A DNA stretch of 64,000 nucleotides from positions 992,001 to 1,056,000 of the forward strand of contig NZ_CP046046.1 of assembly GCF_009676705.1 (NCBI RefSeq), written 5' to 3'. This DNA is from Spiribacter sp. 2438 (GTDB lineage: Bacteria; Pseudomonadota; Gammaproteobacteria; Nitrococcales; Nitrococcaceae). This document shows, in pieces, positions 36,633 to 48,269 of the stretch. The notes below the pieces were generated by a model that ran no database searches, was not told the DNA's origin, and was given only the letters and a program-made list of their open reading frames with translations. Made by a program: the position numbers and the translations under genes. Positions within the stretch are counted from its first letter, which is position 1; each line of letters starts with the position of its first letter.

Positions 36633-37076
36633 CTACCAGCGCTTATAAGGCAGGAATTTTCCGTTCATGGTGATCTTGACGCGATCACCCTTCGGATCCT
36701 CTACCTTCTCCACATCCATGGTGAAATCGATTGCGCTCATGATGCCGTCGCCAAACTTCTCCTGAATGACTTCCTTGAGGGTCTCCCCATAGACCATCAC
36801 AATTTCATTCAGGCGGTAGACGAGAGGATCCGACACCATGGTTTCGTACCGCTGCCCCTTGTCCGGGTAGTCGGCAAGGGCTTCCGCTACCCCCGGCTCG
36901 AGGCCCAGAACACCAGCCAGCGCCTTGGCATCCTCCGGTGTCATGCTGTTTTCACCGAGGCAGGCGGAGCAGAGAAAGACCGGGGACAGGCCGGTGCTGT
37001 CTCCCAACTGCTCCCAGCTGACCTTGTTGGCCTTTTTCGCTGACAGAATCTGCTCGCGCATTTCGTCTTTTGTCAT
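36633..37076 (-). CDS. cynS: Cyanase (cyanate hydratase)
   Basis: A 147-residue enzyme that converts cyanate and bicarbonate to ammonia and carbon dioxide and works as a decamer. The catalytic residues Arg88, Glu91 (VYRLNEIVMVYG) and Ser114 (DGIMSAIDF) match E. coli Arg96, Glu99 and Ser122 with a constant offset of 8. The N-terminal helical DNA-binding-like domain and the C-terminal MNGKFLPYKRW are also conserved. GGAG lies 7 bases before the ATG. It is last in an operon with a nitrate/cyanate-type importer, 23 bases after the ATPase gene, so that importer probably carries cyanate. Confidence 0.96.
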   Translation of the reverse strand: MTKDEMREQILSAKKANKVSWEQLGDSTGLSPVFLCSACLGENSMTPEDAKALAGVLGLEPGVAEALADYPDKGQRYETMVSDPLVYRLNEIVMVYGETLKEVIQEKFGDGIMSAIDFTMDVEKVEDPKGDRVKITMNGKFLPYKRW

Positions 37077-37099: not shown

Positions 37100-37906
37100 T
37101 TAGGCGGATAGGCTGAGCTCATGAGAGCGCCGCACAAGAAAGTCCATTAAATGGTTACGAATTTCGTAGTAGCGTGGGTGACGGATGATATTTTCCCGCT
37201 CCCGTGGACGCGGGATATCAACCTTGACCGATTCTGCGATCCGGGCATTCGGGCCATTGGTCATCAAGAGAATGCGGTCCGACAACAGCATGGCTTCATC
37301 CACGTCGTGGGTAATCATGAACACCGTCTGCTGAGACTCGCTCCAGATTCTGATGAGCTCGTCCTGAATAGTGCCGCGGGTCAGCGCATCAAGGGCACCG
37401 AAAGGCTCATCCATGAGCAGCATTTCCGGTTGAATGGCAAACGCACGGGCTATGCCCACCCGCTGCCTCATCCCGCCGGACAGTTCCGCGGGGCGACGGT
37501 GAGCGGCGGATTCCAGCCCTACCAATTCCAGGTACTGGAGGGCATGGTTTCGGACCTTTTGCCGGCTCCAGCCAGGCCAGCGAGCCCGCGTCGCAAACAT
37601 GATATTGCCCAGCGCACTCTTCCATGGCAGCAGACTATGGTTCTGAAAGATGACCCCACGATCGAGGCTTGGCCCCGCCACCTCACGTCCATTCATGAAG
37701 ATATTGCCGGTGCTGGGCGTATCCAGCCCGGCAAGCAGGTTAAGAATCGTCGACTTTCCGCAGCCCGAGTGCCCGATCATGCAGACGAACTCGTTGGTCT
37801 GAAGATCGATATCAACGTCTTCGAATACCGTTAGCGGAGCACCGCCTCGGACACCGGGAAAGGTTTTCGACAGGGTTTCCGTGTAGAGAATAGAACGGGC
37901 TGACAT
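37100..37906 (-). CDS. Nitrate/cyanate-type ABC transporter ATP-binding protein
   Basis: A 268-residue ATPase of the NrtD/CynD/SsuB class. Walker A is GHSGCGKST, the signature is LSGGMRQRVGIARA, Walker B is MLLMDEPFGALD, and the H-loop is MITHDVDEA. It drives the importer formed with the permease gene 6 bases upstream and the binding protein before it. A cyanase gene follows, which favours cyanate as the substrate. Nitrate cannot be excluded, although no nitrate or nitrite reductase is in the window. Confidence 0.9.
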   Translation of the reverse strand: MSARSILYTETLSKTFPGVRGGAPLTVFEDVDIDLQTNEFVCMIGHSGCGKSTILNLLAGLDTPSTGNIFMNGREVAGPSLDRGVIFQNHSLLPWKSALGNIMFATRARWPGWSRQKVRNHALQYLELVGLESAAHRRPAELSGGMRQRVGIARAFAIQPEMLLMDEPFGALDALTRGTIQDELIRIWSESQQTVFMITHDVDEAMLLSDRILLMTNGPNARIAESVKVDIPRPRERENIIRHPRYYEIRNHLMDFLVRRSHELSLSA

Positions 37907-37912
37907 GCCAGG

Positions 37913-38764
37913 TCAGGCTCCTTTATAAGATGCTGCGCGGGTGGCGGATGCGAGAATGGTGTCGAGGACCATGCCGACCAGGCCAATCATCAGAATCGAA
38001 AAGATGACGCTGGTGAGATCCAGGTTATTCCACTCATTCCAGACGTAGTAGCCGATGCCCGTACCGCCGACCAGCATTTCTGCGGCGACAATCACCAGCC
38101 ACGAGATGCCTATGGCAATGCGCATGCCGGTCAGGATCGTCGGCGCGGCAGCTGGCAGAATCACCGAAAATGCCGTCCGTCCGGGGGAGAGCTGCAGCGT
38201 CTTTGCGACGTTACGCAGATCTTGGCTGACACCCGCCACGCCAAACGCCGTGTTGGTGAGAATCGGCCAGACCGAGCAAATAAAGATGACGAATACTGCC
38301 GATGCAATACTGTCCTGAATGATGAACAGCGCCAACGGCATCCACGCCAGCGGCGATATAGGACGCAGTATCTGAATATAGGGATTCAGTGCCTTCTGGA
38401 AGATGGGCGACATCCCGATCAGGAACCCCAAGGGCACGGCGAGGATGACGGCAAATGAATAACCGGCCAGCACCCTCGCGACGGAGTACGCCAACTGGGT
38501 GCCAATACCCTTATCGTTCGGCCCGTTGTCATAGAAAGGATCCGACAGTTCCTGCACTGCCCTGGCAATAACATCCGACGGGGGAGGAATCCCCGCGCCG
38601 GCCGTTTCCGAACCGCCGCCGGTCATCATCTCGTACTCCGAGAGCTCACCCTGGGACCCCGAGTCGGCCACACGGGTGGCCGACTCCCAGAGCCCGAGGG
38701 CAACAATCAATATAATGAGGCCGACGATCAGCGCCTTGATGTTGTCCGATTGGATCAAAGTCAC
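37913..38764 (-). CDS. Nitrate/cyanate-type ABC transporter permease
   Basis: A 283-residue inner-membrane permease of the NrtB/CynB/TauC class with about six helices. The ATPase-docking loop is near residues 190-210 (LRNVAKTLQLSPGRTAFSV, then LPAAAPTI). The GISWLVIVAAEMLVGGTGIGYYVW segment is typical of the nitrate/cyanate/taurine group. A periplasmic loop of about 60 residues separates the first helix from the rest. Its ATG overlaps the binding-protein stop by four bases. Confidence 0.9.
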   Translation of the reverse strand: MTLIQSDNIKALIVGLIILIVALGLWESATRVADSGSQGELSEYEMMTGGGSETAGAGIPPPSDVIARAVQELSDPFYDNGPNDKGIGTQLAYSVARVLAGYSFAVILAVPLGFLIGMSPIFQKALNPYIQILRPISPLAWMPLALFIIQDSIASAVFVIFICSVWPILTNTAFGVAGVSQDLRNVAKTLQLSPGRTAFSVILPAAAPTILTGMRIAIGISWLVIVAAEMLVGGTGIGYYVWNEWNNLDLTSVIFSILMIGLVGMVLDTILASATRAASYKGA

Positions 38765-40161
38765 GATCTCCTGATTGGAAAGCTTTCCACGTATTCCGTT
38801 GGGCGGGACGGGTCAAATTCCTTACCCATGATGAAGTGAGTCCGATAGGTGCGATCCGGGGCTTCATACCCGAGATCATTCATGACCCGGCGACAGTCAG
38901 TGGCCAGGTACACCTGTTCGGCGACCTGGTTGTAGTCAATGTCGCCGTCGATGTAACCCCAGCGCTTCATCTGCGTGAGGATCCAGACCGCCATGGAATG
39001 CCAGGGGAAGGGATCGAAATCGATGCGCTCCGGCACGTCCTGCACGTTGCCGAGCCCATCCGCGAACCGACCGGTAAGCACCTGATTCACCACCGCCTCC
39101 GGCTGGTTCAGATACGCCCTTGGCGAAATAGCCGTGGCAATTTCCGAACGGTTCTCCGGGTTGGAGGCATAATTGGTGGCGTCGACAATGGCCTTGAACA
39201 ATGCACCGAAGGTGTTGGGATGCTCTTGGGCAAACCGCTGCCCGATGGCGAATGCACAGCAAGGATGCCCGTCCCAGAGATCCCGGGTCAGCATGTGGAT
39301 AAAGCCCACACCATCCCAGACCGCCCGCTGATTGAACGGATCCGGTGCCAGATAGCCATCGACGTTACCCGCCCGTAGGTTCGCCACCATTTCCGGTGGA
39401 GGCAGCACCCGAATCTGGATGTCCTGATCCGGATCCAGTCCATGCTCTGCGACGTAATACCGAAGCAGGAAGTTATGCATTGAGTAATCGAACGGCACAG
39501 CGAAGGTCATGCCCTTCCACTGAGATGGGTCCCGCTTGTCCTGATGGTCGTTGTGCAGCGTGATGGCTTGCCCGTTGATGTTTTCAACGGCGGGCATCAG
39601 CCAGGGTTCGGCGGTGGACCCAGCTCCCAGCGTGATAGCCAATGGCATCGGAGTCAGCATGTGCGCAGCGTCATATTCCCCGCTGAGAGACATGTCGCGA
39701 GCCACTGCCCAGCCAGCGGTCTTGATCACCTCGACATTCAGACCGTAGCGCTCATAGAAGCCCAGGGGGTGAGCCATGATGATGGGTGTGGCACAGGTGA
39801 TGGGCACGAAGCCGACACTTAGATCCGCCTTCTCCGGTGGTCCAAGATTGTCCTTCAGCATGGCTTTGGCCGCGTCCAGCGGAAAAACCGAAGCCAGAGC
39901 TGCGGCAAAAGTTCCGCCACCGACCGCCTGCATGAAACGCCGGCGGGACATATCGTTATGGCCAAACATGGCGCGAACCACCGCGCTTTCAATGGCGCGG
40001 TCGACCGTGGCCTCGTAATCCCGCTCTGGAAGGTTCTGCACGGAAGGCTCGCCAGCCGGGTCATGGTGATGCCCATGCTGACAGGTGCTACAGGTGCACC
40101 CAGCGCCGTGCCGCAGGTCAGCGTCCGGATTGAACGGATCGTCAAGAGACTTGTTACTCAT
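38761..40161 (-). CDS. Nitrate/cyanate ABC transporter substrate-binding protein (NrtA/CmpA-like), Tat signal
   Basis: A 466-residue binding protein of the NrtA/CmpA family. The mature domain includes VGFVPITCATPIIMAHPLGFYE and FAVPFDYSMHNFLLRYY. A twin-arginine signal (SRRRFMQAVGGGTFAAALA) starts only near residue 72. Before it lies an unusual hydrophilic leader with a Cys/His cluster (CTCSTCQHGHHH, residues 22-33). GGAG lies 8 bases before the ATG, immediately after a terminator with seven T residues, so expression depends on read-through. It is the first gene of the importer-cyanase operon, downstream of an ANTAR antiterminator gene. Confidence 0.87.
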   Translation of the reverse strand: MSNKSLDDPFNPDADLRHGAGCTCSTCQHGHHHDPAGEPSVQNLPERDYEATVDRAIESAVVRAMFGHNDMSRRRFMQAVGGGTFAAALASVFPLDAAKAMLKDNLGPPEKADLSVGFVPITCATPIIMAHPLGFYERYGLNVEVIKTAGWAVARDMSLSGEYDAAHMLTPMPLAITLGAGSTAEPWLMPAVENINGQAITLHNDHQDKRDPSQWKGMTFAVPFDYSMHNFLLRYYVAEHGLDPDQDIQIRVLPPPEMVANLRAGNVDGYLAPDPFNQRAVWDGVGFIHMLTRDLWDGHPCCAFAIGQRFAQEHPNTFGALFKAIVDATNYASNPENRSEIATAISPRAYLNQPEAVVNQVLTGRFADGLGNVQDVPERIDFDPFPWHSMAVWILTQMKRWGYIDGDIDYNQVAEQVYLATDCRRVMNDLGYEAPDRTYRTHFIMGKEFDPSRPTEYVESFPIRRS

Positions 40162-40175
40162 CGCGGTTTCTCCAC

Positions 40176-40208
40176 AAAAAAACGCCGTCAGCGAATGCTG
40201 ATCGGCGT
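40176..40208 (-). terminator. Intrinsic terminator in the leader of the cyanate/nitrate operon
   Basis: On the minus strand an 11-bp stem with one bulged base (40208-40197 with 40192-40182, loop ATTC) is followed by seven T residues. It ends 14 bases before the start of the binding-protein gene and directly before its ribosome-binding site. A terminator in that position has to be bypassed for the operon to be expressed, as in NasR/NasT-controlled nitrate operons. Confidence 0.88.
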
Positions 40209-40232
40209 CTTTGCCAAAACATCAAATCCCCC

Positions 40233-40292
40233 TGCGCATCACCCCGCCATTAGGTGGCGGCTGAGGACAGCCACCGATGCGCACTAATGGCG
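40233..40292 (-). ncRNA. Structured leader RNA, candidate ANTAR-responsive antitermination element
   Basis: Between the ANTAR gene stop and the terminator the RNA can form several competing helices. TGCGCATC (40233-40240) pairs with GATGCGCA (40276-40283), 8 bp. CGCCATTAG (40245-40253) pairs with CTAATGGCG (40284-40292), 9 bp. Because the order is a, b, a', b', the two are mutually exclusive or form a pseudoknot. A smaller hairpin (CCGCCA 40244-40249 with TGGCGG 40255-40260) and another with a six-base loop (259-262 with 269-272 of 40000) also compete. The textbook A1/G4 hexaloop pair is not evident. Confidence 0.55.
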
Positions 40293-40307
40293 CTGCAAAA
40301 GTTGTGC

Positions 40308-40868
40308 CTAGATGTTCCGAAGGACGATTTCCGCGATATCGAACAAGCGGCGATTATGCTCCATGGCGTTCTTTCTCAACCACTTATGGGCTTCTGCTTC
40401 TCCCATGCCACGCTTTTCCACCAGCAGTGCCTTGGCGCGAGCAATCACCCGTTCCTCCTCCACCTGCTGCCGCGCTGCACCAAGCTGGTTCAGGAGCTCC
40501 TGATTGGCGGAATATTGGGAAACACTCGCCTCGATAATGGCGCCAAGCGTGGGCGGCGATACATGCTCGCGCGCGTAAACACTCAAGCCGAGCTGGGAGA
40601 GAGCCGGTGTCGGTTTTTCGGCGCCGGAGCTGTCCAGAACAATCACGGGCTGTGTGAAAGGGCGCATCCGGTGCGCCGCGTCCTCGATCATGTCGCGCTG
40701 CGCGGATCCCGAATCGATAATCACCACATCCGGCACGTTCCGATCCATGGCGGCGGTGACCGCCACACTGCTGTCGTCGGCGACGATGACTTCGTAGCCC
40801 GCATTCTCGAGTCCGGAAACCATCAGCGAGTCAGACGGTTCGGCGGCTTGAATCACCAGTACGCGCAT
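40308..40868 (-). CDS. ANTAR-domain antitermination response regulator (NasT-like)
   Basis: A 186-residue RNA-binding regulator. The N-terminal receiver-like domain keeps a central aspartate (Asp52 in IIDSGS) but lacks the usual acidic pair near residues 8-9, so it is probably not a phosphorylated switch. A linker helix leads to the C-terminal ANTAR domain (about 130-186; RVIARAKALLVEKRGMGEAEAHKWLRKNAM). In NasT systems the partner NasS, an NrtA-like protein, releases NasT in response to nitrate. No separate NasS gene is present here. The gene lies directly upstream of the leader terminator of the cyanate/nitrate operon. Confidence 0.88.
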   Translation of the reverse strand: MRVLVIQAAEPSDSLMVSGLENAGYEVIVADDSSVAVTAAMDRNVPDVVIIDSGSAQRDMIEDAAHRMRPFTQPVIVLDSSGAEKPTPALSQLGLSVYAREHVSPPTLGAIIEASVSQYSANQELLNQLGAARQQVEEERVIARAKALLVEKRGMGEAEAHKWLRKNAMEHNRRLFDIAEIVLRNI

Positions 40869-41077
40869 GGCCCATCCCTAACTTGCGGGGTGTGACATAG
40901 GTATCTAGCAACATGCATGCCGGTCATTGCGAAATTTAATGCTAACGCGGCGAAGGCCCGCTCCCGCAACCCGGGGGCTTTCAGTACTGGAGTTTTCCTG
41001 AAAGAAGTGCACCAGGATGGCGCAAAAAATCCAGCTGCTGCACCACTCTGAAGGTGCTGCGCGGCGGGAGTTAAAGG

Positions 41078-42004: not shown

Positions 42005-43096
42005 ATGATCCAGCGCACTGTCCTGTCCCTGGTAATGACTTTGCTGATGACCGCCGCGGCGATGGCCCAGCCGCGGGTGGAGGTCGCCGTCGACGATCTC
42101 ACCCATCCCTGGGGCATGGCCCTGCTGCCGGAAGGCGATCTGCTGGTGACCGAACGCCCCGGCCGCCTGCTGCAGCTGAACCCGGACACCGGCGAGCGCC
42201 GGGTCATTGGCAACTCACCGGCGGTGGTGGCGCGGGGCCAGGGGGGACTGCTGGACATTGCCCTGCACCCACAATTCGAAGACAACCGCTGGGTCTACCT
42301 GACCTGGGCGGGAGCCTGCGAGTCCGGCAGCGCCACCCACCTGGGCCGTGGGAAGCTCGGCGACGGCGAGCTGACGGACTTCGAGACCCTGCTGGTGGCC
42401 GAGCCCTGTGTCTCCAGCGGTCGGCATTTCGGCTCGCGGCTTGTTTTTGACCGGGACGGCCACCTTTACATGACCACCGGCGATCGGGGTCAGCGGGATC
42501 GCTCCCAGGACCCCCACGACCTCAACGGTGCCGTGCTGCGACTTCACGATGACGGCAGCATTCCAGCAGACAATCCTTTCGCCGACGGCGCGGCGGGGCA
42601 TCCCGCCATCTACAGCTTCGGTCACCGCAATCCCCAGGGGGCGACTTTGCATCCGGTCACCGGTGCGGTATGGATCCACGAGCATGGCCCGCGGGGCGGC
42701 GATGAAATCAATCTCCCCGCCTCGGGGGAGAACTTCGGCTGGCCGCTAATGACCCATGGGCGCGAATACCATGGCCCCGAAATCGGCCCGGACACCCTGC
42801 CCGGCATGGTGGATCCGATCCATCACTGGACGCCATCCATCGCCCCGTCCGGCATGTTGTTCTACACCGGTGATGCGTTCCCCCACTGGCAGGGGCATCT
42901 GTTGGTGGGCGCTCTGGTCCAGACCCATCTGGCCCGACTTGAACTGGACGGTACAACGGTTGTCACCGAAGACAGATTGCTGGAAGACCGTGGCCGTCGA
43001 ATCCGGGCGGTGGAGCAGGGTCCCGACGGGGCGATCCTGCTGCTGACGGATCATGCCGATGGTGAACTGCTGCGACTGACACCGAGGGACCACTGA
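42005..43096 (+). CDS. PQQ-dependent soluble aldose sugar dehydrogenase (YliI-like)
   Basis: A 363-residue secreted protein. The signal peptide is MIQRTVLSLVMTLLMTAAAMAQ with cleavage after about residue 21. The mature part is a six-bladed GSDH-type beta-propeller (HPWGMALLPEGDLLVTERPGRL, HPQFEDNRWVYLTW, GDRGQRDRSQDPHDLNG, FGHRNPQG, IHEHGPRGGDEIN). Family members oxidise aldoses with PQQ in the periplasm. GGGGA lies 7 bases before the ATG, and an upstream extension of the frame is rejected for that reason. Its stop overlaps the first antiporter gene (TGATG), which is odd because the functions differ. Confidence 0.9.
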   Translation: MIQRTVLSLVMTLLMTAAAMAQPRVEVAVDDLTHPWGMALLPEGDLLVTERPGRLLQLNPDTGERRVIGNSPAVVARGQGGLLDIALHPQFEDNRWVYLTWAGACESGSATHLGRGKLGDGELTDFETLLVAEPCVSSGRHFGSRLVFDRDGHLYMTTGDRGQRDRSQDPHDLNGAVLRLHDDGSIPADNPFADGAAGHPAIYSFGHRNPQGATLHPVTGAVWIHEHGPRGGDEINLPASGENFGWPLMTHGREYHGPEIGPDTLPGMVDPIHHWTPSIAPSGMLFYTGDAFPHWQGHLLVGALVQTHLARLELDGTTVVTEDRLLEDRGRRIRAVEQGPDGAILLLTDHADGELLRLTPRDH

Positions 43097-43566
43097 TGCC
43101 ACTGCGAAACGCCATCATGCTGCGAGGTGGACTATTGGCCGGACTGTGGCTGGTATTGTCCGATTTCGCCCTCTCCGGGCTGATCATCGGCATGCCGGCG
43201 GTGGCCGCCGCCACCGCCCTAAGTCTGCGCCTGTTGCCGGCAGCATCGGGCCGGCGCCCCTGGCGCGGAGTGCCCCTGCTCCCCCGGTTTGTCTGGCGTT
43301 CCCTGCTGGGCGGGCTGGATGTCGCCCGTCGGGCGCTGGACCCGCGCCTGCCCCTGTCACCCGGGTGGCGAACCCTCCCCCGGACCCTGTCGCCGGGCGG
43401 CGGTTTTCTGATTGGCACCCAACACAGCCTGATGCCCGGCACCCTGGTGGCGGGCACTCGGCGGGGTCAGTATCTGGTGCATCTCCTGGATGACCGTCAG
43501 CCCATCGCCGCCCCACTGCGAGAGGAGGAAGACCGGCTTTCGCGGGCCCTGGAAAAGCCGTCGTGA
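43096..43566 (+). CDS. mnhE: Mrp-type Na+/H+ antiporter subunit E
   Basis: A 156-residue inner-membrane protein of the MnhE/MrpE family, with N-terminal helices and the conserved cytoplasmic part VWRSLLGGLDVARRALDP, then GTQHSLMPGTLVAGTRRGQYLVHLLD. It is an essential small subunit of the multisubunit antiporter that expels Na+ (or K+) in exchange for protons. The ATG overlaps the stop of the sugar dehydrogenase gene (TGATG), and its own stop overlaps the next subunit. Confidence 0.9.
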   Translation: MPLRNAIMLRGGLLAGLWLVLSDFALSGLIIGMPAVAAATALSLRLLPAASGRRPWRGVPLLPRFVWRSLLGGLDVARRALDPRLPLSPGWRTLPRTLSPGGGFLIGTQHSLMPGTLVAGTRRGQYLVHLLDDRQPIAAPLREEEDRLSRALEKPS

Positions 43567-43856
43567 TGGCCGATTGGCTGCTGCTCATGGCCACCGGCCT
43601 ACTGGCCACCATCGCGGTGGCGTTGTGGCGAATTGCCCGGGGGCCGGAACGGGCCGACCGCATGATGTCGGCCCAGCTCATCGGCACCGGTGGCATCGCC
43701 ATCATTCTGCTGCTGGCGGTGGCCGGAGAGGACTGGGCCATGCTGGATGTGGCGATTGTGCTGGCACTGCTGGCGGCGGTGTCCATCATCGCCTTCGCCA
43801 AAAGCGTCCGTCGCGTCGGCACCGGCGATCCGGAGGACGACGATCACCATGATTGA
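43566..43856 (+). CDS. mnhF: Mrp-type Na+/H+ antiporter subunit F
   Basis: A 96-residue protein with three helices of MnhF/MrpF type (LATIAVALWRIARGPERADRMMSAQLIGTGGIAIILLLA). ATG 43566 overlaps the mnhE stop by one base (TGATG); a GTG at 43563 is also in frame. The stop overlaps the mnhG start by 8 bases. Confidence 0.9.
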   Translation: MADWLLLMATGLLATIAVALWRIARGPERADRMMSAQLIGTGGIAIILLLAVAGEDWAMLDVAIVLALLAAVSIIAFAKSVRRVGTGDPEDDDHHD

Positions 43857-44124
43857 CGGTCTGACCATCCTGTTGACCGCCCTGGGCCTGGGTTTCTTTG
43901 CCGTCGGCAGTCTCGGGCTGGTGCGCTTTCCCGACACCGCCAGCCGCCTCCATGCCCTGACCAAGGCGGACAATCTCGGCCTCGGGCTGGTGGCCCTGGG
44001 CGTCGCCTTGCAGGCCCCCGGCGTGGTGGAGGTGATCAAGCTCGTGCTGGTCTGGGCCCTGGCTCTTTTCTCGGCGGGGGTGGCGGCGCAGCTGATCGGC
44101 CGGGTGGCCGCGAGGCGCCCGTGA
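43849..44124 (+). CDS. mnhG: Mrp-type Na+/H+ antiporter subunit G
   Basis: A 91-residue three-helix protein of MnhG/MrpG type. The diagnostic segment GSLGLVRFPDTASRLHALTKADNLG follows the first helix. ATG 43849 lies inside mnhF. The frame is open further upstream but that part is a shadow of mnhF. The stop overlaps the next GTG start (GTGA). Confidence 0.9.
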   Translation: MIDGLTILLTALGLGFFAVGSLGLVRFPDTASRLHALTKADNLGLGLVALGVALQAPGVVEVIKLVLVWALALFSAGVAAQLIGRVAARRP

Positions 44125-45053
44125 GCCTCGCCTTCAACACACTGCTGTCACTGATCATCGTGGCGGTGGCCGCCGCCGCCATTCTGGGTCGGCAGGCCTT
44201 CATGGCCGTGGTGTTCTTCATTGCCTATGGACTGCTGATTGCGCTGGCCTGGCTGCGCCTCGAAGCCACCAATGTAGCGCTGGCCGAGGCCGCCATCGGC
44301 GCCGGATTGACCGGCATTCTGCTGCTGGTGGCCTGGACCCGGCTGCGCGCCCTGGAAGCACCGGCGCCCTCTCCGCCCCACCGCCTGCTGCAGGTCCTGG
44401 CCGGGGCAGGTGCCGGGGCTGTGACCCTGGGATTGCTGGCAGCAATCAGCCAGCTGCCGGCGGTACCCGGTCTCCAGCGCGACGTGGCCGAGCACCTGCC
44501 GGTCACCGGCACCGACAATCCGGTGACCGCGGTGCTGCTGAATTTCCGAACCTGGGACACCCTGCTTGAGACGCTGGTGCTCCTGGCGGCGCTGGTGGGC
44601 GCCTGGACACTGACCCGGGATGAGGACTGGCCGGGCCGGGCCGGCCGGCGTCACCGGGTGCTGCCGGACGGGGTGCTGGCCCAGTTCGGTCGCGTGCTAC
44701 CCCCGGTGGCGCTGGTGGTGGGCGCTTATCTGGTCTGGGTCGGCGGCTATCAGCCCGGCGGCGCGTTTCAGGGGGGCACGGTGCTGGCCGCTGCCTGGAT
44801 CGTGGCGGTGATGACCGGACACCTTCCCGCCCCGCGGGTGGATGACCGCTGGATGCGCATGGCGGTGCTGATCGGGCCCACGTTTTTCCTGCTGGTGGGA
44901 CTGGCCGGACTGGTTGTCGGTGCCTTTCTCTACATCCCGCCAGGGTTTGCCAAGCCAGTCCTGATGGCCATCGAGGCCACTCTGGCGGTGGCCATTGCGG
45001 CAACGCTGGCCATGCTGGTCTTTGGTGCCCCGGAGCAGGGGGAATCGTCATGA
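44121..45053 (+). CDS. Mrp-type antiporter subunit B with fused DUF4040/MbhD-like domain
   Basis: A 310-residue membrane protein joining two modules. The N-terminal 75 residues (LIIVAVAAAAILGRQAFMAVVFF, then LEATNVALAEAAIGAGLTGILLL) match the DUF4040/MbhD module, which is part of the C terminus of MrpA in standard systems. The C-terminal 140 residues (LPPVALVVGAYLVWVGGYQPGGAFQGGTVLAAA) are MnhB. Between them, around NPVTAVLLNFRTWDTLLETLVLLAALVGA, is the MbhE-like helix pair also found in MrpA tails. So the MrpA tail has been moved onto MrpB here. GTG start within the mnhG stop. Confidence 0.86.
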   Translation: MSLAFNTLLSLIIVAVAAAAILGRQAFMAVVFFIAYGLLIALAWLRLEATNVALAEAAIGAGLTGILLLVAWTRLRALEAPAPSPPHRLLQVLAGAGAGAVTLGLLAAISQLPAVPGLQRDVAEHLPVTGTDNPVTAVLLNFRTWDTLLETLVLLAALVGAWTLTRDEDWPGRAGRRHRVLPDGVLAQFGRVLPPVALVVGAYLVWVGGYQPGGAFQGGTVLAAAWIVAVMTGHLPAPRVDDRWMRMAVLIGPTFFLLVGLAGLVVGAFLYIPPGFAKPVLMAIEATLAVAIAATLAMLVFGAPEQGESS

Positions 45054-45340
45054 CCGCCACCGAGTGGCTACCCTTTACGGTCTGTGCCGCCGCGCTCATT
45101 GGCCTGGGCCTCTACGGGCTGGTGACCCAGCCGTTATTACTACGCCGGGTGATCGCCTTTAATGTGATCGGATCCGGCATCTTTCTGCTGTTCGGAGCGC
45201 TGTCCGGCAGCGAAAGCGCCGGTACCGACTCGGTGCCCCAGGCCATGATCATCACCGGCATCGTGGTGGCCCTGTCCGCCACGGCCCTTGCCCTGGCGCT
45301 GGTAGTCGCCCATGCCCGGGAGGGCGGTCGCGACCCATGA
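45050..45340 (+). CDS. mnhC: Mrp-type Na+/H+ antiporter subunit C (NuoK-like)
   Basis: A 96-residue protein with three helices, homologous to NuoK of complex I (LIGLGLYGLVTQPLLLRRVIAFNVIGSGIFLLFGAL). The PQAMIITGIVVALSATALALAL helix is diagnostic of MnhC. The ATG overlaps the preceding stop, and the next ATG overlaps its own. Confidence 0.92.
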   Translation: MTATEWLPFTVCAAALIGLGLYGLVTQPLLLRRVIAFNVIGSGIFLLFGALSGSESAGTDSVPQAMIITGIVVALSATALALALVVAHAREGGRDP

Positions 45341-46809
45341 GCCTGCCGATCACTGCTCTGGTTCTGTGCCTGACGCTGCCACTGCTGGGTGCCATCGCCA
45401 CGGTGGCCGCGCCGCGCCATGCCACGCCACTGGTCACCAGCGTCGCCGGGCTGATGGTGGCCGTGACCATAGGCCTGACGAGCCATGTTGCGATCCATGG
45501 GCCGGTGGTGGTTGCCCTTGGCGAGTGGGCACCGCCGCTGGGGATACAGATCATGGCGGATGGGCCGGCGGTGCTGTTCCTGCTGGTCAACGCACTGGTC
45601 ATGGCGGCCGTGGTGCTGTTCTCGCTGGCGCCCATCGGACAACCGGGACCCCGCAGCCGGCTGGCCCAGACCTTCTGGCCGCTTCTGTTGCTGCTATGGG
45701 GGGCGCTCAACGCCATATTTGTCTCCCGGGATCTGTTCAATCTCTATGTGGGGCTCGAGCTGGCCAGTCTGGCGGCGGTGGCGCTGGTGGCCATCGAACG
45801 AAAGCGCGACACCCTCAATGCGGCACTGCGCTATCTACTGTTCGCCCTGACCGGCTCGCTGCTCTATCTGCTGGGCGTGGTCCTGATCTACGCCGGTCAT
45901 GGGACTCTGGACATCACTCTGCTGGCCGGCGAATTGGGCATGCACCCCACGGATGCGCTGGCCATCGGGGCGATGACCGCCGGCCTGGCTGCCAAAACCG
46001 CGCTGTTCCCCTTTCACGTCTGGCTGCCACCCGCCCATGCCGGCGCGCCCGCCCCCGCCAGCGCGGTATTGTCGGCGCTGGTGCCCAAGGCCTCGCTCTA
46101 TATCGCGCTCCGCCTGTGGCTTGAGGCCGCGCCGGGGGCCGGTGATGCGATCGCCGTCAATGTCCTGGGCTGGCTCGGCGCTCTGGCCGTTGTCCATGGC
46201 TCGATCATGGCCCTTCGCCAGGAGCGCCTGAAACTGGTCATCGCCTACTCCACGGTGGCCCAGATCGGCTACCTGTTCCTCGTGTTTCCCCTGGCGCTGG
46301 GCGCCGCGGGCGCCGCCGGGAGCGGTGTGGCGGACAGTGCCTGGAATGGCACCCTGTTTCAGGCACTGTCCCATGCCCTGGCCAAAGCCGCGCTGTTCCT
46401 CTGCGCGGGGTTGATCCTCGAAGCCGCCGGCCATGACCGCATTGCTCGACTGGCGGGCGTCGCCCAGGCCCTGCCGGTCACCCTGTTCGCCTTCGGCCTG
46501 GCGGCCATCACACTCATGGGCCTGCCCCCCAGTGGCGGCTTCATGGCCAAGTACCTGCTGGTGACCGCCTCGCTGGAGGGCGGTGTGCCGGGCTGGGGGC
46601 TGATAGTGCTGGCCGGCGGTCTGCTGGCCGCGGCCTATCTCTATCGCCCCATGGCCTCGGCCTTTCGGCACCCGGATCAGGAGTCCGCCGCCCCCTTCAC
46701 AACGGTGGCGGCCTGGCGGCAGGCAATCCCGCTGGGGCTGGCTATCGCCTCCCTCGCCCTCGGCATCCTGCCCGCTGTCCCCCATGAGTTGATGGGAGGC
46801 ATGCCATGA
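45337..46809 (+). CDS. Mrp-type antiporter large subunit 1 (MnhD/NuoN-like)
   Basis: A 490-residue membrane protein of about fourteen helices from the proton-conducting antiporter family shared with NuoL/M/N. The TM5 glutamate is present (LYVGLELASLAAVAL). The TM7 lysine (AAKTALFPFHVWLPPAHAGAPAPASAVLS) and the TM8 lysine (VPKASLYIALR) are also present, as needed for proton movement. It is the first of three such large subunits in tandem, each overlapping the next by four bases. Confidence 0.9.
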   Translation: MSLPITALVLCLTLPLLGAIATVAAPRHATPLVTSVAGLMVAVTIGLTSHVAIHGPVVVALGEWAPPLGIQIMADGPAVLFLLVNALVMAAVVLFSLAPIGQPGPRSRLAQTFWPLLLLLWGALNAIFVSRDLFNLYVGLELASLAAVALVAIERKRDTLNAALRYLLFALTGSLLYLLGVVLIYAGHGTLDITLLAGELGMHPTDALAIGAMTAGLAAKTALFPFHVWLPPAHAGAPAPASAVLSALVPKASLYIALRLWLEAAPGAGDAIAVNVLGWLGALAVVHGSIMALRQERLKLVIAYSTVAQIGYLFLVFPLALGAAGAAGSGVADSAWNGTLFQALSHALAKAALFLCAGLILEAAGHDRIARLAGVAQALPVTLFAFGLAAITLMGLPPSGGFMAKYLLVTASLEGGVPGWGLIVLAGGLLAAAYLYRPMASAFRHPDQESAAPFTTVAAWRQAIPLGLAIASLALGILPAVPHELMGGMP

Positions 46810-48269
46810 CCGACTGGCTGCCCCCGCTGATTCTTGCCACATCGCTGCTGCCGGCGGTGGCGACCTTTTTTCTGCATCAGGAAAGCCACGTCTGGCGCAA
46901 TACGCTCAACCTCGGCGGAGCGTTGCTCAAGGTCGGGCTGGTGGTGTTCATGCTGGTGGAAGTGGCCGGGGGCACCCTGCATGAAACCCGCATCGACCTG
47001 GTACCGGGGGTGTTCCTGCTGTTGAGGGTGGACGCCCTGTCGCTGCTGTTTCTGACCCTTTCTGCCGTGCTGTGGTTGCTCACCACGGTTTACGCCATCG
47101 CCTATTTCGACCATAAACCCAACCTCTCCCGGTTCTTCGGTTTTTTCAGTCTGTGCGTTTTCGCCACCACCGGCATTGCCCTGTCGGGTTCACTGCTCAC
47201 CTTTTTCATTTTCTACGAGCTACTCACCCTGAGCACCTGGCCGCTGGTGGTCCACAAACAGAACGCCGCCTCCATGCGCGCGGGGGTGTCCTACCTGCTG
47301 TATTCCCTGCCGGGCAGCGTGGCGTTGCTGTTCGCCATCCTCTGGCTGGAATCCGCGGCCGGGCCAGTGGAGTTTGCCAACGGCGCCGATTTTGCCGATC
47401 TGGATTCGGCCAGCCAGCGGTGGCTCTTCCTGCTGTTCGCCGGAGGACTGGCGGTCAAAGCGGCCATGGTGCCGCTTCATCGATGGCTACCCGCCGCCAT
47501 GGCCGCCCCGGCGCCGGTGAGTGCGCTGTTGCATGCCGTGGCGGTGGTGAAGGCCGGCGCCTTCGGGTTTGTCCGCGTCATCCACGATGTATTCGGCATT
47601 GAGCGGGTTACCGACCTGGGACTGGGCATACCGCTGGCCATGCTCGCCTCAGTGACCATTCTGTATGGCTCGATTCAGGCGCTGCGCCAGACCGGGATCA
47701 AGCGCCGACTGGCCTACTCCACGGTCAGTCAGGTCTCCTACATCGTCCTGGGTGCCGCCCTCGTCGGCCCCCTGGCGCTCATCGGCGGGCTGGCTCACCT
47801 GGTTCACCAGGGCCTGATGAAAATCACTCTGTTCTTCTGCGCCGGCATATACGACGAGCGGGCCGGCATCCATGAGATCGCGGAACTGAACGGCATTGGC
47901 GCCCGCATGCCGTGGACCTCGGTGTGTTTCTCGCTGGGGGCGCTGGGCATGATCGGCCTGCCGCCCATGGCCGGCTTCGTCACCAAGATCTACCTGGGCC
48001 TGGGGGCCATGGAGTCGGGGGCCCCCTGGGTGGTGGCTGTGCTGGCCGGCTCAACGCTCTTGAACGCAGCGTATTTCCTGCCGCTGCTCTACCGCATCTG
48101 GTTTACCCCGCCACCGGACGGCGAGCGCCCCGGTGAGCGCCCCCTGGGCATCGTGGTCCCGGCGGTGATTACCGGCCTGGGCGCCATCGCCGCCGGGCTC
48201 CTCGCCGGTGCGGATTTCAGTCCGCTGGGCTGGGCCACACTAATCGTCGAGAGGCATTACCAACCATGA
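46806..48269 (+). CDS. Mrp-type antiporter large subunit 2 (MnhD/NuoM-like)
   Basis: A 487-residue, roughly fourteen-helix protein of the same family. The TM5 glutamate (FFIFYELLTLSTWPLVVHKQ), the TM7 lysine (VKAAMVPLHRWLPAAMAAPAPVSALLHAV) and a lysine in the next helix (VVKAGAFGFVR) are all present, so it looks competent for ion translocation. PVSALLHAVAVVKAG is the family signature. It overlaps both neighbours by four bases. Confidence 0.9.
   Translation: MTDWLPPLILATSLLPAVATFFLHQESHVWRNTLNLGGALLKVGLVVFMLVEVAGGTLHETRIDLVPGVFLLLRVDALSLLFLTLSAVLWLLTTVYAIAYFDHKPNLSRFFGFFSLCVFATTGIALSGSLLTFFIFYELLTLSTWPLVVHKQNAASMRAGVSYLLYSLPGSVALLFAILWLESAAGPVEFANGADFADLDSASQRWLFLLFAGGLAVKAAMVPLHRWLPAAMAAPAPVSALLHAVAVVKAGAFGFVRVIHDVFGIERVTDLGLGIPLAMLASVTILYGSIQALRQTGIKRRLAYSTVSQVSYIVLGAALVGPLALIGGLAHLVHQGLMKITLFFCAGIYDERAGIHEIAELNGIGARMPWTSVCFSLGALGMIGLPPMAGFVTKIYLGLGAMESGAPWVVAVLAGSTLLNAAYFLPLLYRIWFTPPPDGERPGERPLGIVVPAVITGLGAIAAGLLAGADFSPLGWATLIVERHYQP

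Follow-up and report, generated by a model that had tools for sequence, protein, structure and literature searches.

The stretch of Spiribacter sp. 2438 DNA analysed here (64 kb, referred to as the window) is part of a 1.9 Mb genome in one contig and carries an ANTAR gene, a leader and the operon cynABDS in succession on the minus strand:

40308 to 40868, minus strand: gene for a NasT-like ANTAR protein of 186 aa (PF03861, 57.6 bits against a cut-off of 27.3)
40307 to 40162, minus strand: leader of 146 nt between the ANTAR gene and cynA
40161 to 36633, minus strand: cynABDS operon, downstream of the ANTAR gene and leader
38761 to 40161, minus strand: cynA, 466 aa, Tat-type substrate-binding protein of the NrtA/CmpA family (PF13379, 298 bits)
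37913 to 38764, minus strand: cynB, permease, NtrB-type (TIGR01183, 222.9 bits, above cut-off)
37100 to 37906, minus strand: cynD, ATPase, NtrC/D-type (TIGR01184, 315 bits, above cut-off)
36633 to 37076, minus strand: cynS, cyanase (TIGR00673, 161 bits against the NCBIfam cynS cut-off of 113)

A preliminary description of this DNA had recognised an ANTAR/NasT-like gene followed by a 146-base leader and, downstream, an importer and cyanase operon. Both claims are borne out, the first by the open reading frame at 40868-40308 and the leader at 40307-40162, and the second by the profile scores of the NrtA-like protein, permease, ATPase and cyanase. Orthologs of the cynA product (about 56-72% identity) lie beside permease and ATPase genes and several of them also beside a cyanase gene. 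The cyanase matches 1dw9 and other solved cyanases, and its residues R88, E91 and S114 are spaced like the catalytic triad of the E. coli enzyme (R96, E99 and S122). The assignment as cynABDS was made on finding a cyanase with these Arg, Glu and Ser residues adjoining an NrtA-type ABC transporter orthologous to that of known cyn operons. At the N-terminus of CynA (window 40161-39900) a Cys/His-rich stretch, CTCSTCQHGHHH, precedes the twin-arginine signal, and most CynA orthologs (loci L048-L063 and L132-L153) have CSCGxH or CxCxxC at the matching place. This odd extension could serve in metal binding or could delay export.

The leader contains the following elements:

40176 to 40209, minus strand: intrinsic terminator, an 11-bp stem (40209-40183) with one bulged A, an AUUC loop and U7 (40182-40176)
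40202 to 40217, minus strand: P2, the putative antiterminator hairpin, UUGGC[AAAGAC]GCCGA, found by the A1/G4 scan and the dual-hairpin scan
40243 to 40254, minus strand: P1 hairpin, CCU[AAUGGC]GGG, found by the A1/G4 hexaloop scan and covariance-model alignment
40233 to 40283, minus strand: three-way junction predicted in the minimum-free-energy fold of the leader, from one sequence and without a covariation test

The terminator, GACGCCGAUCAGC-AUUC-GCUGACGGCGU, has a folding energy of -20.4 kcal/mol in isolation and its U7 tract lies 14 nt from the cynA ATG (40161), so that the strong terminator with an 11-bp stem and seven T residues described earlier at 14 bases before the importer gene is found exactly as claimed. 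The fold of the whole leader has a z score of -3.7 against shuffles, none of 200 of which reached equal stability. In a simple terminator scan the leader terminator was scored via its inner 5-bp stem only. A scan against Rfam returned no matching leader family, and a sub-threshold match to PhrS within the permease gene was regarded as due to chance.

The targets of ANTAR proteins consist of two small hairpins with A1 and G4 in a hexaloop, the second of which overlaps a terminator (PMC3369931). When the leader was scanned for A1/G4 hexaloops on stems of at least 3 bp, exactly two hairpins, P1 and P2, were found, and a dual-hairpin scan of both strands of the 64 kb gave this leader as its sole match. 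The 3' half of P2 (40206-40202) falls within the 5' arm of the terminator (40209-40197) and the two structures would therefore be mutually exclusive. With the terminator kept fixed and the upstream part of the leader shuffled in 20,000 trials, 0.34% of shuffles gave a P2 with 5 or more bp over the terminator arm and 0.03% gave such a hairpin together with a P1. P1 is weak, having either 3 bp including a G-U pair or, in an alternative ACCU/GGGU pairing, a heptaloop (AAUGGCG), and it barely qualifies as part of a dual hairpin. ANTAR antitermination had previously been proposed here from the gene order and terminator, the recognition element (P1 and P2) being inferred and not pointed out; it is located in this analysis, and the dual A1/G4 motif, the position of P2 over the terminator and the agreement with loops in relatives all argue for that proposal.

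NasT-like genes of other gammaproteobacteria are often followed by a leader of like build, with dual hairpins and a terminator that reuses the P2 arm, as in GCGAACC[AAUGGC]GGUUCGC ... GGAC[AAAGGC]GUCC. The loops AAUGGC and AAAGRC recur among these NasT leaders, several of which lie directly 3' of nasT and 5' of nrtA or narK-type genes. The P1 loop is identical in the leaders L024, L033 and L039, and a U-G closing pair is also seen in L122. A covariance model (R1) was built from 17 NasT leaders of relatives with the window left out; the pair counts of this training set are inflated because the leaders had been chosen by their hairpins. The best match in the window is the leader itself (40258-40201, 16.9 bits, E 0.067, rank 1 in 64 kb). 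This is a modest score, and across the genome the model lacks specificity: four matches elsewhere, all in coding sequence with no terminator seen, score higher, and a regulon acting in trans was rejected for these sites. The match is therefore to be read as support and not proof, the motif being small and a few coding-region matches scoring above it.

Two pairs of promoter-like sites precede the ANTAR gene and the leader:

41008 to 41024, plus strand: NtrC-like site TGCACCAGGATGGCGCA, one mismatch, about 100 bp upstream of the first sigma-54 site
40907 to 40923, minus strand: sigma-54 -24/-12-like promoter CCGGCATGCATGTTGCT, 5' of the ANTAR gene, GG-N10-GC, one mismatch
40476 to 40492, plus strand: NtrC-like site TGCACCAAGCTGGTTCA, inside the ANTAR gene, one mismatch, about 175 bp upstream of the leader promoter
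40294 to 40310, minus strand: sigma-54 -24/-12-like promoter TAGGCACAACTTTTGCA, at the start of the leader and overlapping the ANTAR stop codon, GG-N10-GC, one mismatch

The two NtrC-like sites are the only ones with at most one mismatch to TGCACCA-N3-TGGTGCA in the 64 kb (expected 0.027), this consensus having been applied after one site had caught attention and the second having come out of the scan. Matches to the sigma-54-like sequence with at most two mismatches are fewer across the window than expected by chance (7 against 17.6) and the promoter argument therefore rests on the pairing of NtrC-like and sigma-54-like sites, of which there are two cases in the window, both at this locus, and none in 150 simulated windows. 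The genome encodes a bona fide NtrC (716 bits against a cut-off of 559), and no sigma-70 promoter was found near the leader. In relatives, 13 of 19 NasT leaders have a sigma-54-like site (at most two mismatches) at 31-90 nt ahead of P1, and a sigma-54-like site precedes cynA in 20 of 38 sampled orthologs. The placing of the sigma-54/NtrC sites as in NasT leaders, and the first rank given to the leader by a model trained without the window, lend further weight to the earlier suggestion of ANTAR antitermination as a probable mode of control.

The sigma-54-like site of the leader predicts a transcription start at about 40283. A start there would place the 8-bp stem UGCGCAUC/GAUGCGCA (predicted at 40283-40276 and 40240-40233) at the 5' end of the RNA, closing a junction that presents P1; in the minimum-free-energy fold this junction encloses P1 and an 8-bp hairpin (40275-40256). 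The linker between P1 and P2 is 25 nt, longer than in most NasT leaders, linkers of this order being seen also in L033 (29 nt) and L096 (24 nt), and 8 nt of it are predicted to pair with the 5' end of the RNA in closing the junction. Linker length is variable in the general definition of ANTAR targets, with 5-12 nt in E. faecalis eut (Ramesh et al. 2012). A pairing of CGCCAUUAG with CUAAUGGCG across the leader was dropped since its 5' arm precedes the predicted start near 40283 and lies in the promoter region.

Profile searches, on which the genome-wide statements made here are based, identify one ANTAR gene in the genome. Its ANTAR domain is fairly conserved, with a median identity to NasT proteins of 37% (against 49% among NasTs) and the core motifs RAK..L and E..A...LRK.AM present. 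The receiver domain is strongly diverged (23% median identity to NasTs against 44% among them), and the NasT receiver motifs PDRDTLE, GVSAYVVDGL and VAIARF are largely replaced. No NIT domain was found in the protein. The earlier remark that no NasS gene lies nearby is correct and can be extended, by profile search, to the whole genome. Of the three NMT1_2 proteins encoded, one is CynA, the second is a further Tat-type binding protein that has ABC genes of its own, and the third has SsuABC-like neighbours; none could be recognised as a cytoplasmic NasS standing alone, and no NirB scores over cut-off in the genome. The second of these, an NrtA-family protein encoded with a permease and an ATPase at about 1084.3-1087.3 kb of the genome (L171, 4345-7249), also has a Cys/His N-terminus and has acyl-CoA-dehydrogenase-like and rubredoxin-linked oxidoreductase genes as neighbours. 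It has been shown that nitrate frees NasT from cytoplasmic NasS (PMC3795266). In Spiribacter the signal might enter through the receiver-like domain itself, through another partner or through CynA prior to export, or there may be no ligand.

The cyn block and its regulator were most likely gained by horizontal transfer. This is suggested by the lack of a cynA ortholog in all 13 genus-mates, by a G+C content that is about 0.56-0.60 over the block and about 0.64-0.70 on either side of it, and by the arrangement in G014, the genus-mate whose exporter is most similar (82%), where the ABC exporter and sugar-dehydrogenase genes are direct neighbours and no cyn block separates them. The same 13 genus-mates have no ANTAR relative beyond marginal matches. 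Orthologs of the exporter (window 36563-34803) in three of the genus-mates (G009, G013 and G015, loci L180, L181 and L183) have one in-frame stop each and are perhaps decaying copies or carry sequencing errors. Near the island, at window 43096-48269, translations were read of genes that resemble an Mrp-type Na+/H+ antiporter operon.

In the roughly 1.5 kb upstream of 38 cynA orthologs from class and phylum samples no ANTAR/NasT gene turned up, and many of these orthologs have instead a divergent gene for a PAS/sigma-54 activator of the CynF type. No CynF gene adjoins the Spiribacter operon, and the genome's NtrC-family activators match CynF in the C-terminal AAA+ part only and not over its full length. 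No ortholog of the ANTAR-cyn arrangement was found among the sampled genus, family, class and phylum genomes, and for this reason the leader is without covariation support; scans of genome contigs and viruses using single proteins also returned no such arrangement. In plasmid searches the ANTAR relatives reached at best about 30% identity; cynA orthologs were found, the best two with a divergent activator gene.

The leaders of NasS-NasT nitrate systems are alike in having an ANTAR gene, dual A1/G4 hairpins (AAUGGC and AAAGRC) with P2 over the terminator, a sigma-54-like promoter ahead and an NrtA-type ABC operon after; unlike them, the Spiribacter module has cynABDS as its target, no NasS that could be found and a receiver domain only 23% identical. 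The nasF operon of Klebsiella oxytoca is initiated by sigma-54 and NtrC. Its NasR-nasF leader likewise has dual hairpins and is controlled by an ANTAR antiterminator (PMC3369931, PMC3795266). NasR differs in having a NIT nitrate-sensing domain, where the Spiribacter protein has a receiver-like domain.

Among cyanate systems, the cyanobacterial cynABDS, which also joins a cyanase with an ABC transporter, is controlled at initiation by NtcA. The E. coli cynR-cynTSX system shares the cyanase and, according to PMC6627978, is controlled at initiation by the LysR-type CynR. Leader attenuation is described for neither in the literature passages compared. The preliminary description named CynR and NtcA as known cyn regulators, but its list was incomplete, as cynABDS of Pseudomonas pseudoalcaligenes CECT5344 is run by CynF, a divergent sigma-54 activator that is essential for it (PMC6627978). 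The cynFABDS of this organism resembles the Spiribacter operon in structural genes, gene order, sigma-54-like promoter and role in nitrogen use (PMC6627978), and differs in that an ANTAR gene and an attenuator leader here replace the divergent CynF.

We consider it probable (about 0.83) that cynABDS is subject to NtrC/sigma-54 initiation combined with ANTAR antitermination, by a nas-type module on a horizontally acquired block. Under nitrogen limitation, NtrC and sigma-54 would initiate transcription at two places, ahead of the ANTAR gene and where the leader begins, and by default RNA polymerase would halt at the leader terminator. Active ANTAR protein would bind both A/G hexaloops, in P1 and P2; bound P2 would stay folded, the terminator would be blocked and cynABDS transcribed. 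The nas-type module would in this way stand in place of the sigma-54 activator CynF of relatives. The hairpins, the terminator overlap, the promoter-like sites, the single ANTAR gene and the gene order can be read directly from the DNA, and from these we infer binding of the ANTAR protein to the leader RNA, read-through upon binding and a cyanate or cyanate-derived signal. At the level of sequence there is good support for control of a cyanate operon by ANTAR antitermination together with NtrC/sigma-54 initiation.

How the protein might be switched is a more tentative matter. It is conceivable, if doubtful, that it is a stand-alone NasT descendant which has lost NasS, whose diverged receiver-like domain senses cyanate (or the breakdown-linked carbamate or bicarbonate) and which would thus be a one-component, RNA-binding cyanate sensor working with NtrC. 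An unlikely alternative of similar standing is that no ligand is sensed and that the ANTAR protein, made from its NtrC/sigma-54 promoter when nitrogen is limiting, is active as made, the pair forming a feed-forward delay. The missing sensor gene next to the ANTAR gene, the NtrC/sigma-54 module that this gene has of its own and the divergence of the receiver domain would all fit, whereas the well-studied ANTAR systems NasR, NasT, AmiR and EutV are signal-gated (PMC3369931, PMC3795266). It seems distinctly improbable that the module still responds to nitrate or nitrite as NasT does, with the cyanate genes forming part of a nitrate response: the protein is closest to NasT-type proteins and nitrate/nitrite transporters of Pseudomonas may import cyanate (PMC6627978), but NasS was not found among the three NMT1_2 proteins of the genome, no NirB scores over cut-off there and the NasT receiver-domain motifs are lost. 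Least probable is that the terminator, which is strong and sits in an intergenic gap behind a weak P1, just ends the ANTAR transcript while cynABDS is expressed independently of any ANTAR switch, through a promoter of its own or leaky read-through, since the 14 nt between U7 and ATG leave no room for a downstream cyn promoter, the sigma-54-like site of the leader is upstream of the terminator, chance would rarely place an A1/G4 P2 over the terminator arm and NasT leaders have the same layout.

ANTAR antitermination of cynABDS under NtrC/sigma-54 would represent a known mechanism with a new target, the cyanate operon, and an altered input domain, a view that the sequence comparisons support well. 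It appears that a device known from the control of nitrate genes has here been transferred to a new nutrient, cyanate, used as nitrogen source. A search of open papers found none containing both 'ANTAR' and 'cyanase', and the main text of a broad ANTAR survey names ammonium, urea, nitrate, nitrite, nitrogenase and amino-acid synthase genes and no cyanate genes. If this reading is true, cyanate joins the nutrients under ANTAR control, the operon is controlled at the RNA level where relatives use the DNA-binding activator CynF, and the genome, compact and with a single ANTAR protein that has a single evident target, offers a clean case in which to study ANTAR switching without NasS. As a separate observation, a strong P2-like hairpin, GCGGCGGAC[AACGGC]GUCCGCCGU, scoring 18.2 bits with the covariance model, lies 58 nt upstream of a cynA ortholog in another genome (G705, locus L140), with neither a U tract nor an adjacent ANTAR gene, and may represent an ANTAR site that affects translation or may have arisen by chance.
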